Assembly: GCA_902520595.1 (NCBI GenBank)
Contig: CABYOM010000004.1
Span: forward strand, 1-59,047
Direction: 5' to 3'
DNA from: an uncultured Candidatus Poseidoniales archaeon
Lineage (GTDB): Archaea; Thermoplasmatota; Poseidoniia; Poseidoniales; Poseidoniaceae
Length of the DNA stretch: 59,047 nt
Shown: one piece after another, positions 17,013 through 22,703 of the stretch
How positions within the stretch are numbered: position 1 is the first letter of the stretch
How the letters are laid out: each line of letters opens with the position of its first letter
The notes under the pieces: model-generated
Seen by the model: the letters and a program-made list of their open reading frames with translations, nothing else
Databases searched by the model: none
Told to the model about the DNA's origin: nothing
Position numbers and translations under genes: made by a program

Positions 17013-17909
17013 TTATTCAGACTCAGAAAAATTGCTCGAGGCTTTTTTACCGAAAATGATTCCTGAGAGAAGAACTGATGAACCTAGGCACCCAGCGAGC
17101 GTAAAGAGAATTGCTCCTGAAATTCCCGGACTCGCAATTGCCACACGTAAGATCACAGTCGACAATACAAAGCCGGTATTTCTAGCCAAATGGGAAAAAT
17201 CAGTAATGTACTGATATGAAAGCAAGAGTATGAGAATGTCTGCCATGATGAGTATAGTGAAGAAATCAAGGAAGAATATCATTCTGTTCGTACTCCCGTC
17301 TCCCTGTAAGAGAGCGTATGACCAAGTTGATAGCGAGTAACATGCAACCACGACATACACAGTAAGGAGTAAAAGGGCGAGTTGCTTTTTTTGTGAGATG
17401 AATTTGGTCAATTCCTCATTTGCGTTCGCATTGACATCGGCATTTCTTTGCACATTGTTAAAGAACAGTGCAGTCCAGAACAGGACGATAAAAGCGACAC
17501 ACTCCATACCCAGTGTCGTTATGCTGTCGTCAATTGATGAAGAAACTGAAGCGTCGATGTCAGACAATCTTTTGAGAATGTCTCGAACAACGAGTAGAGT
17601 TATGATTTCAAATTGTTTGCCGATAGAGTTTGTAAAAGACTTGGGTATTGTGCGTATTAATTCATAGACTTCGTAGGCTAAAAATATCGAAAATGGAGTG
17701 TACAGTGAATCGAGATATGAGTCAAACAGTCCACTTGTCTTATCAGAAAAAACGATCAATTCAAACTGGTACAGGAAACAGAGGAGAAGGTGAAACAGAA
17801 AACCAAGAATTGCAGCTCGGATGCATACAACACGCAAATTTTCGTTCACACTTTTGCCCAAGAACTTGTCATAGAGAGTATTCACGGTATCAATGTTTTT
17901 TGATTTCAT
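17013..17909 (-). CDS. Uncharacterised polytopic membrane protein
   Basis: 298-aa ORF with several hydrophobic segments; no family recognised. Confidence 0.6.
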   Translation of the reverse strand: MKSKNIDTVNTLYDKFLGKSVNENLRVVCIRAAILGFLFHLLLCFLYQFELIVFSDKTSGLFDSYLDSLYTPFSIFLAYEVYELIRTIPKSFTNSIGKQFEIITLLVVRDILKRLSDIDASVSSSIDDSITTLGMECVAFIVLFWTALFFNNVQRNADVNANANEELTKFISQKKQLALLLLTVYVVVACYSLSTWSYALLQGDGSTNRMIFFLDFFTILIMADILILLLSYQYITDFSHLARNTGFVLSTVILRVAIASPGISGAILFTLAGCLGSSVLLSGIIFGKKASSNFSESE

Positions 17910-17959
17910 TCATATAACTATGTCATGCTCCACCCTACGAAAGCAGATTCTCGAAGAAA

Positions 17960-18085
17960 AATTCTATGATGGAAATAGGTCATTGTACTGACAAAATGAG
18001 ATTCAGCGACTCCTACACAACGGTACCCTTGTATTCATGGGTGTACACAAGGGTTCCCCTTTGAGATACTAGAATCATAGAATTT
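17960..18085. repeat. Palindromic repeat family, copy E1 (divergent)
   Basis: Outer exact 12-bp inverted repeat AAATTCTATGAT (17960-17971) / ATCATAGAATTT (18074-18085). Near-symmetric about an inner near-palindrome ACAAcGGTACCcTTGT; also contains GGGTGTACACAAGGGTTCCCC, related to the other copies. Confidence 0.6.
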
Positions 18086-18126
18086 GTAGGGAATATCAAT
18101 ATATAGATAAACTCGGAGAATTCTGC

Positions 18127-18468
18127 ATGGAGGGATCACAACAAATCAGCAAATCAGAAACGTATGAATCTAGTTTGTTTTCAACCTTGAGCATTGGCGG
18201 AATGATTTCTATCTATCAGTTTTTCAACATGCGAGCAAATTTCTGCTTTTCTATCTGGGGATATCGTTGCGAATATCCTCCAGGATACGCATATCCGTTT
18301 ATCCTTCTATTTCTCTTGATCGTTCTCTCTGTTTCGTACGGAATTTGGTGTTTGACTCGTGGAAAATGGCGCTACGGAATGGGCGCCATCTCCGGGGGAT
18401 TTTTCTCTTTGCCCCTGTTTTTTCTCGCAATGGTTTTCGGAGCGATTTCTAGTGGAACTTTGGGATAA
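18127..18468 (+). CDS. Small orphan membrane protein with FxxWGYRCEYPPGYAYP loop
   Basis: 113-aa ORF with about three TM helices; shares a WG..C..PPGY..P loop with the ORF at 18731. Confidence 0.55.
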   Translation: MEGSQQISKSETYESSLFSTLSIGGMISIYQFFNMRANFCFSIWGYRCEYPPGYAYPFILLFLLIVLSVSYGIWCLTRGKWRYGMGAISGGFFSLPLFFLAMVFGAISSGTLG

Positions 18469-18473
18469 GTAGA

Positions 18474-18672
18474 AAGTAAGTAATTCGCTTGCGCTTACAA
18501 GGGGTTATGCTAAACACCATTGTGTACAATCCACCAGTTTGAAAGGGCTCTCAGTGGGCCCTTCACTACGCTAGCGATGTATATGACCCTCTGCGAACCC
18601 ATCAATATGATGAGTCTACTCACAAGGGTGTTTAGCATCAACCCTCGTAGAGATAAGCAAACCAATTATTCA
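18474..18672. repeat. ~200-bp imperfect palindrome, copy E2/E3 (two complete arms, centre CGCTAGCG at 18569-18576)
   Basis: Left arm AGTAAGTAATTCGCTTGCGCTTACAAGGGGTTATGCTAAACACCATTGTG. Reverse complement of right arm GAGTGAATAATTGGTTTGCTTATCTCTACGAGGGTTGATGCTAAACACCCTTGTG. ATGCTAAACACC is an exact 12-mer in both arms. Confidence 0.75.
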
Positions 18673-18730
18673 CTCTTATTTGTCAGATGAAAATTTATAT
18701 CATACACTAATTTCACCCTAATGTGATACT

Positions 18731-19318
18731 ATGACAAGATTAGTTGGTGAGGAAAATCTTGGTGAAAAGGAACTGCATCCCACTGAGACCTCAGTAATTG
18801 GAGCTAAAAATCAAGGTTTTTTTCATTACAATATAGTGTCACTTTGGATGGCGATTGTTCCTATCATTGGGCTTGTCCTTTGGCTTGCCCATTCAGCAAA
18901 TGACGCTGAATTCGCCAATTCAACAGGTGATGCCGCTGGATTCGTTTTGAGTGGTTTCATGATTTCCATTCCAATTGCCATGATTAGCGCACTTTTTGCA
19001 ATTCGAGCATTGGGCAAGCGATTCTTGAATCCGATGATAATCTCAATTCTAATTGCGATACCATTAGCAATTTGGGAATATTTCAATGAGTTAAATAATG
19101 GATGTTCTGATTGGGGTTGGGGAACTTGCCCCCCTGATCCACCAGGGTACGATTTACCACGTACTATTATGTTGATTTATCTCATTATTTTGGGGGTTTA
19201 CGCTCTTTCGAAATACGATAATAAAGAAGACCAAGCACGAACTTATGGTATTGCATATGGCATGGGATTTGGCTACCTAATTTACGTTCTTGCATGGTTC
19301 TACGGCTGGTTTGGATAA
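18731..19318 (+). CDS. Small orphan membrane protein with CSDWGWGTCPPDPPGYDLP loop
   Basis: 195-aa ORF with about 4-5 TM helices; loop motif resembles the ORF at 18127. Confidence 0.6.
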   Translation: MTRLVGEENLGEKELHPTETSVIGAKNQGFFHYNIVSLWMAIVPIIGLVLWLAHSANDAEFANSTGDAAGFVLSGFMISIPIAMISALFAIRALGKRFLNPMIISILIAIPLAIWEYFNELNNGCSDWGWGTCPPDPPGYDLPRTIMLIYLIILGVYALSKYDNKEDQARTYGIAYGMGFGYLIYVLAWFYGWFG

Positions 19319-19348
19319 ACTAATTCACATACAAAGAATCTATCTGAT

Positions 19349-19380
19349 GCAGTTGGGTTGAACACAAGGGGGTCCCAACG
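19349..19380. repeat. Short partial copy E5 of the palindromic repeat family
   Basis: GTTGGGTTGAACACAAGGGGGTCCCAAC: terminal GTTGGG/CCCAAC inverted repeat. The reverse complement ACCCCCTTGTGTTCAACCCA matches E1 rc AACCCTTGTGTACACCCA. Lies between two convergent genes. Confidence 0.45.
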
Positions 19381-19386
19381 TGAAGT

Positions 19387-20460
19387 TCAATCTTCAATAT
19401 GCTTCAAGCGGCTAATGGCCTTTTTCCGGTTTTCAGGAATTTTCGTATCCAATCTCTCTTGGGATTGAATCGTCACAAGGCCATCTTCTTCGTCTAATTC
19501 AAGCATTGCTAGGAAATTTTCGCTCAGAGCTTTCAATTGAGATTCTCCGAAAACAACGTAGACCTTATCGGCCTCTCCGAATACGTCTATTGACCATTCA
19601 AGTCCAAAGCAGGGAACTCCATTTCGAACTAAAATCAAACAATCTCTCATCTCAATTTTATGTCTGCTTCGAAGTTTTAATTTGCTGAAACTATTGTATT
19701 CAATGGTGTATGTTTCGGTCTTCTCTAAATCAGCGTGTAACTGTATAAGATTCTTTTTTGAGCCAGTCTCGTCTTCTTCTAAATTATATTCAGGCCAGTC
19801 AGGATGATTTACTCCAAATATCCGTGTAATCGTCAAACCTCGTTCAATTAGATCTAAATTGAAGTTAAAAAATTTCTGACCTGTTTGGGGGCGGAGCCAC
19901 CAAAGTCGCGTATTTGTGAAGGCAGTTGCATAGATTTTGTCTCCTGGTTGAGCAAATTCCGTAATCAATTGGTAGGTATCCTTCGATTCATCGGAACCTT
20001 GTAATCCCGGAGTTCTAGAGATTAATTGAATCCTCCCAAAATCACGAATATTGGCTTCCTGCTCATTAATTGTCCAATGAACAATTTGGTTTGCAACGAT
20101 TTCGCTCTTTGCATCAATTTCACGTGCAGAAATTCCCTCGATGAGATTTCGAAGTGAATAAGCAATTTTAGCTCGAATAGGGCCAATTTCTGTTAATCTC
20201 GCTTTTGAATTAGGCCAATTCATCAAAAACGTACCGAAATTACTCTCCTTCTCTTTGAGATGTAACCTGTGGATGAAAAGTACGGCTGGTCCGATGATAC
20301 TTGTTGTTACTGAAGTCAAAAGATACTGGGAGAGAACAACACTATCCCAAACAAAAATTTCTTCACCGGAAGCAACTCTTGAAGATATTGCCAATACCAA
20401 TCCAACAATCGCAGATACGACTGCTGCAATGATTATACTTGATGATCTACTTTCATTCAT
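19387..20460 (-). CDS. Uncharacterised protein, N-terminal TM pair plus soluble domain (possibly PLD-like; unproven)
   Basis: Two N-terminal hydrophobic segments, then KIYATAFTNTRLWWL...KLRSRHKIEMRDCLILVRNGVPCFGLEWSIDVFG. Start MNESRSS overlaps the stop of the transporter gene by 8 nt. Confidence 0.5.
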   Translation of the reverse strand: MNESRSSSIIIAAVVSAIVGLVLAISSRVASGEEIFVWDSVVLSQYLLTSVTTSIIGPAVLFIHRLHLKEKESNFGTFLMNWPNSKARLTEIGPIRAKIAYSLRNLIEGISAREIDAKSEIVANQIVHWTINEQEANIRDFGRIQLISRTPGLQGSDESKDTYQLITEFAQPGDKIYATAFTNTRLWWLRPQTGQKFFNFNLDLIERGLTITRIFGVNHPDWPEYNLEEDETGSKKNLIQLHADLEKTETYTIEYNSFSKLKLRSRHKIEMRDCLILVRNGVPCFGLEWSIDVFGEADKVYVVFGESQLKALSENFLAMLELDEEDGLVTIQSQERLDTKIPENRKKAISRLKHIED

Positions 20461-21328
20461 TTTCTCCACCTTCCAAAGTTTCATTTTTGTTTTGCTCAAA
20501 AATAATCAATACCATGCCAGCAATCAGTACCGAGCCTCCAACCCATGTCCATATACCGGGGACTTCAGCAGTTCCTAACTGCCATCCAATCAGGGTACCT
20601 ATCAACGGCTCGAAAAGGTATGCAACGCTAACAATGATTGGAGGGAACCACCTCAACACCATACTTATTCCAGCATGACCTACAATACCAGGGAATACAG
20701 CGAGATACAACACATAGGGTAACCAAGACAAAGCCATCCAACCTACGATTGAAATATCTGCATCAGACATTGAAAACGTTGAACCTTCTGAAATCAAGGA
20801 AATGAGCGCTAATTGAATTGCAGCTATGAATGTAACCGGGAAAGCATAGACGAATAAGGGCATCCATTTCCTCAATTTACTACCTGCGATCAAGTATCCT
20901 AAAATCGCAACAGCGCCCAATATTGCTGCTATGTCACCGATCAAAGTAGCATCAACTTCAGATGAAATTCCTAGCAGCGTGATGCTTGCACCAGTAAATC
21001 CAACAATCGCGCCCGCTATTTGTTTGACAGGAACAAATCGTCTCAGTAGTAAAGCACCAGAAACGAGGAGGAGGGGATGAATCGTCACAAGAAGTAAACT
21101 GTGTGTCAATGATGTGTTGTCTAAGGACCACACCCATGCACCCATGTGCAACCCAAGACTTAATCCAGACCCTAAAAGGATGAAAATGGTTTCCTTATCC
21201 ATAATTTTGGCCATAATTTCGGGTTGCTTGCTGCATTGTCTGTATTGAATGATGAACATCGGGGCCATCAAAATTGCAGTAAGTTGAAACCTCCACGATG
21301 CCCGAAGCATAGGTTCGACATCATCCAT
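20453..21328 (-). CDS. EamA/DMT superfamily transporter (ORF-track start; true N-terminus probably upstream)
   Basis: Repeated EamA-like TM pattern (LSLGLHMGAWVWSLDNTSLTHSLLLVTIHPLLLVSGALLLRRFVPVKQIAGAIVGFTGASI). The in-frame upstream region encodes a plausible TM1 without an ATG. Confidence 0.8.
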   Translation of the reverse strand: MDDVEPMLRASWRFQLTAILMAPMFIIQYRQCSKQPEIMAKIMDKETIFILLGSGLSLGLHMGAWVWSLDNTSLTHSLLLVTIHPLLLVSGALLLRRFVPVKQIAGAIVGFTGASITLLGISSEVDATLIGDIAAILGAVAILGYLIAGSKLRKWMPLFVYAFPVTFIAAIQLALISLISEGSTFSMSDADISIVGWMALSWLPYVLYLAVFPGIVGHAGISMVLRWFPPIIVSVAYLFEPLIGTLIGWQLGTAEVPGIWTWVGGSVLIAGMVLIIFEQNKNETLEGGENE

Positions 21329-21544
21329 AAGTTGAAAGATTGCCCCTGCACTTGAAACAGAAACTATAGCGAAGAATAGAATAATCCATAAAAGTATACT
21401 ATTTTTCTGAATATCCTCACCCCTCTTAGCAATCTAAGTCGGCCATAATAGCAAGCAAAATCTCATACTTATTGAAATCATCACTAATTAGCCCAAGTTT
21501 GAACAAACACAACGTATCGAATCCAATTAACCAAATCTGGTAAA

Positions 21545-21677
21545 TGAATAAGTGGTTTACGTATAATAACGAGGGGTCATGTTAACAACCCTTGTACACG
21601 ATTTGCATGTTCACAAGGTTTGCAGTGGGTCATATGCAACGGTACCGTTGTGTTCAAAAGCGGGTAAGCGATTGAAA
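21545..21677. repeat. Palindromic repeat family, copy E4 (complete left arm, centre CAACGGTACCGTTG at 21637-21650, truncated right arm)
   Basis: GAATAAGTGGTTTACGTATAATAACGAGGGGTCATGTTAACAACCCTTGTACAC...GCAGTGGGTCATATGCAACGGTACCGTTG aligns along almost its whole length to the E3 arm of 18474-18672. Confidence 0.7.
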
Positions 21678-22703
21678 TCAGCGAGTTGCAAGAGTGAGGT
21701 TCTTCCACATCTCTTCTGGGACTTCCATAGCAAGTCTGAGACCACCCATTGCGCCGAGACGAACCGGGTCATCAACTACGTGAACATTCACATCGCCCAT
21801 GTCGGAGAGTTTACGCTCAATCATTGCACCGAGACCCTTAATTCCAGATCCGCCACCAGCAAGAACCATGTTTCGACGGAACTCGTCATGATATTCTGGG
21901 TTTGAACCAGCAATCAATTCCTTAACGTTCTCGACAATAGGATCAACAATTGATTCGCAAGCACGTTGGATACAATCTGTGATGTCAAGATTCATTGCCT
22001 TACCTTCAATAGAAAAGTCAACCATAACTGGTTCATCAGGAGATGCAGAGCCAACAAAGGAATACTGTTCCTTCCAGCGTCGAGCCATGTCCTTGGTAAT
22101 TTGCGCACCACTGTATTTGGATTGAACTTCTTTGATAATTGCCCGGTCGATGAAATCACCAGCATGACCAGTGTGCATTTGGTCGCCTGGACCAGGGATT
22201 GTTCCGTATACACGGCAAAGGTCTGCTGTTCCTGCCCCGATATCGATGACAAGAGTGTGTTCAATCATATCGAGTGCATAAGCAACTGCGAAAGGTTCTG
22301 AAATAATCATAGCAGCGTTTACAGAACCTGCTGCAGCATCAAAGATTGATGTCTTATCGACGTAACTCGCTTCAGCAGGTGCGCCTATGACTGCGACCAC
22401 ACGGTCATAATCTTCAGGGTCGGAAAGACCGATAAGATGGGTAATGAAGTGTGCAATAAATTCACGGTCTTCTTGTGTGTCCTTGATTACACCAAGTTCC
22501 AATGGACGGAAAAGATTCAGAGCGAGTCGATTTTTGAGAGCTTCTTCACCAAAAAGAACATCTCGCTTGAGGAAGTTTCGAGCAATCGGGTCCTTTGGAG
22601 TGCCAATGACTGTGAGCTCTTCTTCTTCATGACTATCCGAAGATACCATTACGGAACGGAAGGTTCCTAAATCAATTCCAATATACAATATGTCTTCTGC
22701 CAT
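21678..22703 (-). CDS. MamK-like bacterial-type actin (MreB/MamK/ParM superfamily)
   Basis: YIGIDLGTFRSVM, LVIDIGAGTADLCRVYGTIPGPGDQ, WKEQYSFVG, NPEYHDEFRRNMVLAGGGSGIKGLGAMIERKL; motif order resembles MamK as recalled. Confidence 0.85.
   Translation of the reverse strand: MAEDILYIGIDLGTFRSVMVSSDSHEEEELTVIGTPKDPIARNFLKRDVLFGEEALKNRLALNLFRPLELGVIKDTQEDREFIAHFITHLIGLSDPEDYDRVVAVIGAPAEASYVDKTSIFDAAAGSVNAAMIISEPFAVAYALDMIEHTLVIDIGAGTADLCRVYGTIPGPGDQMHTGHAGDFIDRAIIKEVQSKYSGAQITKDMARRWKEQYSFVGSASPDEPVMVDFSIEGKAMNLDITDCIQRACESIVDPIVENVKELIAGSNPEYHDEFRRNMVLAGGGSGIKGLGAMIERKLSDMGDVNVHVVDDPVRLGAMGGLRLAMEVPEEMWKNLTLATR

Follow-up and report, generated by a model that had tools for sequence, protein, structure and literature searches.

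Palindromic repeats as probable recombination ends of mobile gene cassettes in Poseidoniales

Integrons are the textbook example of gene-cassette capture and use tyrosine recombinases. In the staphylococcal cassette chromosome (SCC), tandem cassettes, some of them without a recombinase, occupy one target; the Ccr recombinases have about 450-560 aa and the units are tens of kilobases long. The pdif modules of Acinetobacter plasmids are mobilised by the Xer-dif system at XerC/D sites of about 28 bp. The means of gene exchange in the ocean archaea studied here are little known. We analysed a family of repeats on a contig of 59,047 nucleotides (the window) from an uncultured Candidatus Poseidoniales archaeon, contig C4 of the metagenome-assembled genome G000 (1.42 Mb, about 70% complete). 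The repeats are real, and very probably represent the recombination ends, and the joints between such ends, of gene cassettes that move among Poseidoniales (marine group II archaea). Judging from sequence comparisons, the cassettes enter at a single precise short target and pass from species to species; the enzyme that moves them is most likely a short serine recombinase encoded on some of them. A study of archaeal integrons (PMC9668308) concerns IntI and attC; Thermoplasmatota, Poseidoniales and serine enzymes are absent from its text. Our literature search, with subscription papers and preprints outside its scope, found no earlier account of serine-recombinase cassettes, nor of such cassettes in Poseidoniales.

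Each unit has a long end (A, about 105 nt) and most also have a short one (C, about 47 nt); both end types stop at a TA dinucleotide. As in integrons, small units of one or a few genes stand in arrays, mostly without a mobility gene, site-specific recombination appears to take place at imperfect-palindrome sites, and many clusters contain no enzyme gene. The candidate enzyme is a serine rather than a tyrosine recombinase, however, and the crossover would be the TA in GGGTACCC (GG-TA-CC) instead of G^TTRRRY. Many chromosomal targets are used rather than one attI, each unit has two arms (A and C), and cargo genes face either way in about equal numbers (14 toward A, 16 toward C), whereas attC fixes orientation. 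IntI was not found: the only match to TIGR02249, an XerA-like protein, scores 104 bits against a cut-off of 265 and is not near the ends. A single attI-type platform is absent as well, the ends being scattered over many contigs and single sites (eight matches around the single-contig genome G072).

With SCC (CcrA/CcrB/CcrC) the system shares a serine recombinase, tandem cassettes and passive relatives that lack the recombinase, and CcrB is its best NCBIfam match by score. This score is 87 bits against a Ccr cut-off of 900, however, the protein has 262 aa instead of roughly 450-560, the units measure 0.5-3 kb instead of tens of kilobases, and there are many target sites with a palindromic TA core without polarity. 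The large serine recombinases (TP901-1, Bxb1, phiC31) are similar in their catalytic domain, in the partial Recombinase domain, in the 2-nt crossover and in the combination of a short target with longer arms in the element. A protein of 262 aa leaves no room for their C-terminal zinc-ribbon/coiled-coil region, and arms of about 105 and 47 nt (A and C), a symmetric TA crossover and cargo moved in trans would set the present system apart from them. The IS607 family, which is also known in archaea, combines a small serine recombinase with a small mobile unit, but its model gives 29 bits against a cut-off of 110, and the complex ends and the GGGTACCC target differ; TnpB was not found in the units examined. 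Like pdif modules, the units are single-gene modules bounded by inversely oriented sites, whereas their ends are about 50-110 nt long and associated with a serine enzyme. The system appears to work like the integron and SCC, yet to belong to neither.

These ocean archaea, which are abundant and uncultured, appear to have come to an integron-like mode of operation by means of a serine enzyme and of sites that are both unrelated to those of integrons. We consider the chances evenly balanced that the cassettes constitute an order-wide serine-recombinase counterpart of the integron, which would capture and shuffle genes with several recombinase and end subtypes, could move any gene between an A and a C end in trans, and would be a main route by which accessory genes are exchanged within an archaeal group that ranks among the most abundant of the surface ocean. 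The cassettes would also offer a precise signature, made up of A end, C end and GGTACC target, with which to search for the flexible gene pool of Poseidoniales, and a source of short serine recombinases whose palindromic core of 8 bp is defined and could be tested at the bench.

Cassette ends and their TA core

The comparison set included more than 60 species genomes of the genus of G000. The repeat was treated by a sequence-only model, since Rfam and RNAalifold gave nothing, and copies were counted by profile search. Across 638 kb of related loci, the A profile gave 192 matches against one (E 0.35) in the reversed sequence that served as control, and the C profile gave 157 against none. A first-pass annotation of the window, made from the letters alone, had suggested counting further copies by profile; related loci proved to contain more than 200, whereas reversed sequence gave almost no match. 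Its proposal of a structured RNA was not borne out, as 25 aligned copies yield no consensus base pair and Rfam gave no match.

A ends read ...ACAAGGGTTATGCTAAACACCCTTGTAAACAATT...ATTCACAAGGGTTCGCAGTGGGTCATATACAACGC-TA and C ends TA-CCGTTGTATACGCATACGTACACAAGGGGGCCCCTTGTATACAC. ACAAGGG/CCCTTGT motifs are repeated inside both end types, where they probably serve the enzyme as accessory binding sites. The core TA is nearly invariant (T 92%, A 98%), and the flank outside it is kept for just 8-9 nt (TACC[CG][AT]T). Units occur singly at GGTACC/GGGTACCC targets or in short end-to-end arrays, in which abutting units have one TA in common. Because abutting ends join at this common TA, the repeats form palindromes (CGC TA GCG at A-A junctions, CGG TA CCG at C-C junctions, and also at A-C junctions). 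The AT-rich outer palindrome GAATAAGTGGTTTGCTTATG was considered as a dif-like site, an idea that was dropped because the breakpoints sit at the core and not at this palindrome.

Ends, junctions and units were counted in the loci read (207 A ends and 74 C ends). Junctions of the A-A type were found 29 times, A-C 26 times and C-C 10 times, which by our own informal arithmetic fits random unit orientation if some 45% of the weak C ends are detected. Thirty units are of the A..C type, mostly 0.5-1 kb long with one main gene, and 17 are of the A..A type; no C..C unit was seen. The A..A units are mostly longer and probably consist of two units with an undetected C-C joint. An earlier model with a single type of terminal inverted repeat (TIR) and A..A units was replaced once the C end was found. 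Adjacent A ends 0.1-5 kb apart face outward in 27 cases and inward in two.

The last 12 or so nucleotides of A ends before the core (between GTGGGTC and CGCTA) occur as discrete recurring variants (ATATACAACGC, GATACAGACGC, GTGCTAACGC, CTATTCGTCGC and CCAGTACACTGCC). Two near-identical copies of one G003 cassette differ in this core-proximal variant at one end. The variants may mark specificity groups of the recombinase, or exchange inside the core region.

Empty sites, exchange between species and distribution

On contig C8 of G003, a 1.8-kb array lies between ...AAAGGG-TA and TA-CCCATTG.... Contig C73 of G004 holds the exact empty site, GGGTACCC; when the two flanks of the G003 array are joined, C73 follows them colinearly (91% identity) across ...AGGGTACCCATTG..., reading uninterrupted as AGAGGGTACCCATTG. 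The empty target is GGG-TA-CCC and the occupied one GGG-TA-[cassette]-TA-CCC, so that TA is present once in the empty site and at both junctions in the filled one. Other cassettes are found at this GGGTAC site in G061 and G071, and several other relatives lack a stretch of about 70 bp that contains the G003/G004 site.

Homology blocks stop at TA cores about 15-30 times more often than by chance: 56 of 171 block ends lie within 15 nt of a core, compared with about 1% per side expected. Near-identical units were found in different species and genera. A 2.08-kb unit encoding a GDSL-lipase/GH43 is 99.1-99.5% identical in G003 (two loci), G045 and G055, a 1.73-kb stretch is 99.94% identical between G055 and G019, and cassettes are 97-99.9% identical across species whose core genes are 78-86% identical. 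Among the explanations offered by the first-pass annotation, a recombination site for cassette capture is supported by these observations, namely by the exact empty site and by near-identical cassettes at different places in different species. As it had suggested checking, the repeat copies also mark the borders at which small genes are present or absent.

We found 53 of 266 ends within 500 bp of a contig end (12.7 expected). This excess is expected for sites that vary within populations, and the choice of loci by repeat matches does not on its own give rise to it. Mobile cassettes would account for many assembly breaks in Poseidoniales genomes.

The cassettes of G000 C22 and G045 C3 are inserted behind homologous genes (left flanks of L129 and L149), and target sites are therefore reused across species. 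Head-to-tail repeats of about 150 bp were seen in a cassette region of G055 and G053 (L124:5574-7020 versus L125:602-1146), where they give several offset alignments.

At a threshold of E <= 1e-4, A ends are present in 94 of the 146 Poseidoniales genomes sampled, covering 19 of 21 genera and both families; the highest number in any one genome was 27 matches. Every matching genome of a phylum-wide sample fell within Poseidoniales, and none was seen outside the order. Named contigs in databases that carry the same repeat all belong to Candidatus Poseidoniales/Poseidoniaceae or to unclassified marine Euryarchaeota. A virus- or plasmid-borne element was considered and rejected: the two end patterns and the enzyme had no match among the viral contigs of IMG/VR and all plasmid matches were below 60% identity, which leaves a virus or plasmid origin without support.

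A serine recombinase linked to A ends

Approximately 96 cassette open reading frames contain no transposase or recombinase family and no DDE domain. The first-pass annotation had noticed no recombinase nearby, which is true of the window, but relatives carry a serine recombinase inside the same ends. Serine recombinases (PF00239) are encoded in 11 of 60 genomes of the genus. A search of 319 Poseidoniales genomes with three G015 proteins as queries detected some relative of these recombinases in 34. In one subfamily of about 262 aa, 12 of the 13 testable members start 0.1-0.6 kb inside an A end and read inward (three in G015 and one each in G032, G112, G206, G076, G115, G077, G089, G145 and G194); one further copy in G032 has an A end 1.6 kb upstream. 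The three members in G015 are all of the subfamily-matching recombinases of that genome. None of 18 more distant serine recombinases has an A end.

Locus L236 of G077 contains a complete unit, composed of an A end, the recombinase, cargo, a C end and a C-C joint. Between G032 and G015, and again between G206 and G076, the homologous block consists of exactly the A end and the recombinase gene, and the cargo beyond it differs. One recombinase element of G015 is 99.6% identical over 2,175 bp to an element in another genus (G201). Between recombinase units and units without the gene, including units on G000 C22 and C43, the identity of A ends reaches 87-93%, which supports movement in trans.

The protein matches PF00239 (E 1e-30), the catalytic domain of the serine recombinase superfamily, and its catalytic residues R18, S20, D93, R94 and R97 (R, S, D-R-x-x-R) are invariant in 15 sequences. 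The fold of the catalytic domain matches the TP901-1 and Bxb1 integrases (model with a predicted local distance difference test score of 78, for use at the domain level only). The 262 aa hold only part of the PF07508 Recombinase domain, modelled with one small helical C-terminal domain. At the level of sequence, the junctions are consistent with a crossover at a 2-nt central dinucleotide common to both products.

Sequence comparison establishes the linkage of the recombinase to the A end along with the ends, the core, the target, the empty site and the exchange between species. In the mechanism that we propose, the recombinase of about 262 aa, whose gene some units carry close behind their A end, would cut at TA and units would be excised as circles with one joined A-TA-C site. 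Excised units would be inserted at target cores or at the junctions of other units, and those without a recombinase gene would be moved in trans. Since TA reads the same on both strands, such a reaction would have no polarity and units could enter either way, giving A-A, A-C and C-C junctions. In serine integrases, a self-complementary crossover dinucleotide leads to loss of polarity.

Several observations weigh against this mechanism. The cassette-borne subfamily occurs in just about 13 of the 319 Poseidoniales genomes, and no cassette-borne recombinase gene is present in the 1.42 Mb of G000. No recombinase was found with the exact A-end subtype of the window (GAATAAGTGGTTTGCTTATG...ATATACAACGC-TA), the best matches being about 20 nt. 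The tree of the cassette-borne recombinases is not cleanly monophyletic, with two non-cassette sequences and L303 intermixed at weak support, and TA at both junctions also fits a TA-targeting DDE transposase. We infer catalysis and the circular intermediate. It is also conceivable that the recombinase is a common cargo and not the driver of the movement, a reading countered by its fixed place at the A end. Metagenome assemblies may also misjoin at repeats, yet this anatomy recurs within long contigs of G003, G069 and the single-contig G072.

Units with inverted ends, mostly without a mobility gene and with TA at both ends of the insert and once in the empty site, could also be non-autonomous TIR transposons (like miniature inverted-repeat transposable elements, MITEs, of the IS630/Tc1-mariner type) that duplicate TA and are moved by an unseen DDE transposase. 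We regard this as improbable, since the cassette open reading frames contain no DDE transposase domain, the target is GG-TA-CC and not any TA, the two ends of a unit are unlike (A versus C) with no C..C unit seen, and the gene located at the A end is a serine recombinase. The plain foldback or MITE-like element proposed in the first-pass annotation fails for the same unlike ends, the specific GGGTACCC target and the absent DDE transposase. That the repeats are plain regulatory or terminator palindromes, with gene content varying by homologous recombination at dispersed repeats, is scarcely credible. They are intergenic and able to fold, and repeats can break assemblies, as the proximity to contig ends (53 versus 12.7 expected) would allow. 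The copies show no consensus base pairs, however, are only about 70% alike and hence a poor substrate for homologous recombination, and homology blocks end at the 2-nt core, not along the whole repeat. An exact empty site exists, and together with the position of the breakpoints it already largely refutes this explanation.

Another candidate enzyme is the conserved chromosomal tyrosine recombinase XerA, which would act on the cores in the fashion of pdif modules or integrons and would imply a dif site resembling CAACGGTACCGTTG. Nearly every genome has one XerA-like gene (PF00589 match in 56 of 60 genomes and an NCBIfam XerA match), so that the enzyme would always be available, and the core has inverted half-sites. 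We nevertheless consider its involvement very unlikely: 30 XerA loci have no A or C end nearby, XerA is also present in genomes without ends, exchange takes place at the common TA and not across a 6-8 bp overlap, and the serine recombinase is a better candidate that is physically linked to the ends. The XerA-like protein (L104:1369-2463) is a conserved tyrosine recombinase of 364 aa with an N-terminal extension, found once per genome beside a helix-hairpin-helix/lysine-rich protein. Additional tyrosine recombinases were also rejected as the enzyme, their flanks showing just one weak partial A-like match (L222, E 5e-4). A serine recombinase encoded on contig C7 of G000 was discarded because it and its relatives have no A or C ends. 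This protein of 292 aa is encoded directly before a DNA cytosine methyltransferase gene (L214:4430-6543, G000 C7:31929-34042) and has close relatives in G005, G061, G020, G053, G200 and G240, several of them truncated.

The array beside mreB

In the window, the array spans positions 18024-21644 and contains a C end, a gene for 113 aa, an A-A junction, a gene for 195 aa, a degenerate C end, a gene for 370 aa with an EamA transporter gene, and an A end. The mechanism proposed above would have inserted two to three cassettes here, downstream of an mreB-like gene. The four elements noticed by the first-pass annotation (17960-18085, 18474-18672, 19349-19380 and 21545-21677) are present, its ordered consensus and the centres CGCTAGCG and CGGTACCG are correct, and the profiles of both end types match nothing else in the window, as it had stated. 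Of these, 18474-18672 and 21545-21652 have the same end type, 17960-18085 is of the other type and 19349-19380 is a weak remnant of that other type. The genes between them had been described as lacking a known family, which applies to three without a Pfam match but not to 20453-21328, an EamA transporter.

The left flanking chromosomal gene (17013..17909, minus strand) encodes a membrane protein with weak similarity to DUF6796. It is followed by the left target half-site ...CACAACGG-TA (18014..18025) and by the left end of the array, a C-type end TA-CC...ACAAGGGTTCCCC (18024..18070, plus strand, profile E 1.9e-6). The element 17960-18085 that contains it (profile E = 2e-6) has only the core CAACGGTACC in common with the others because it belongs to the other, shorter end type. 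The left half-site and the C end are bracketed by a perfect inverted repeat of 12 nt, AAATTCTATGAT / ATCATAGAATTT (17959-17970 and 18074-18085), which has one arm in the flank and the other inside the cassette; the cassette model gives no account of this repeat.

Cassette 1 encodes a membrane protein of 113 aa without a Pfam family (18127..18468, plus strand) and ends in an A-type end detected by profile (18475..18573, plus strand, core TA at 18572-18573). The A-type end of cassette 2 (18572..18672, minus strand, also from the profile) abuts it, and the A-A junction has the centre CGCTAGCG. The element 18474-18672 therefore consists of two inverted copies of one end of about 105 nt, with 48-nt arms that are 73% complementary and a self-alignment of about 200 nt. 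The cargo of cassette 2 is a membrane protein of 195 aa, again without a Pfam family (18731..19318, plus strand). The degenerate C-type end ACAAGGGGGTCCC (19349..19380) is only a weak profile match (E 0.86), but is also a boundary because homology with a G006 cassette begins at 19384. Cassette 3 carries two genes on the minus strand, for a protein of 370 aa without a Pfam family (19387..20499) and for the EamA-family transporter recognised with Pfam (20453..21328).

The A-type end of cassette 3 (21545..21644, plus strand, from the profile, core TA at 21643-21644) is the right end of the array. The copy at 21545-21652 is 71% identical to the end in 18474-18672. It is followed by the right target half-site TA-CCGTTGTGTTCAAAAGC (21643..21661) and by the right flanking core gene of the MreB/actin family (21678..22703, minus strand, Pfam). 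Joined, the outer flanks give ACACAACGG-TA-CCGTTGTGT, a perfect palindrome and the predicted empty site. G003, G004 and G053 likewise have a junction at this position next to mreB, there with other sequence and other cassette ends, and in G006 the left flanking gene adjoins mreB at a distance of 97 bp with nothing in between.

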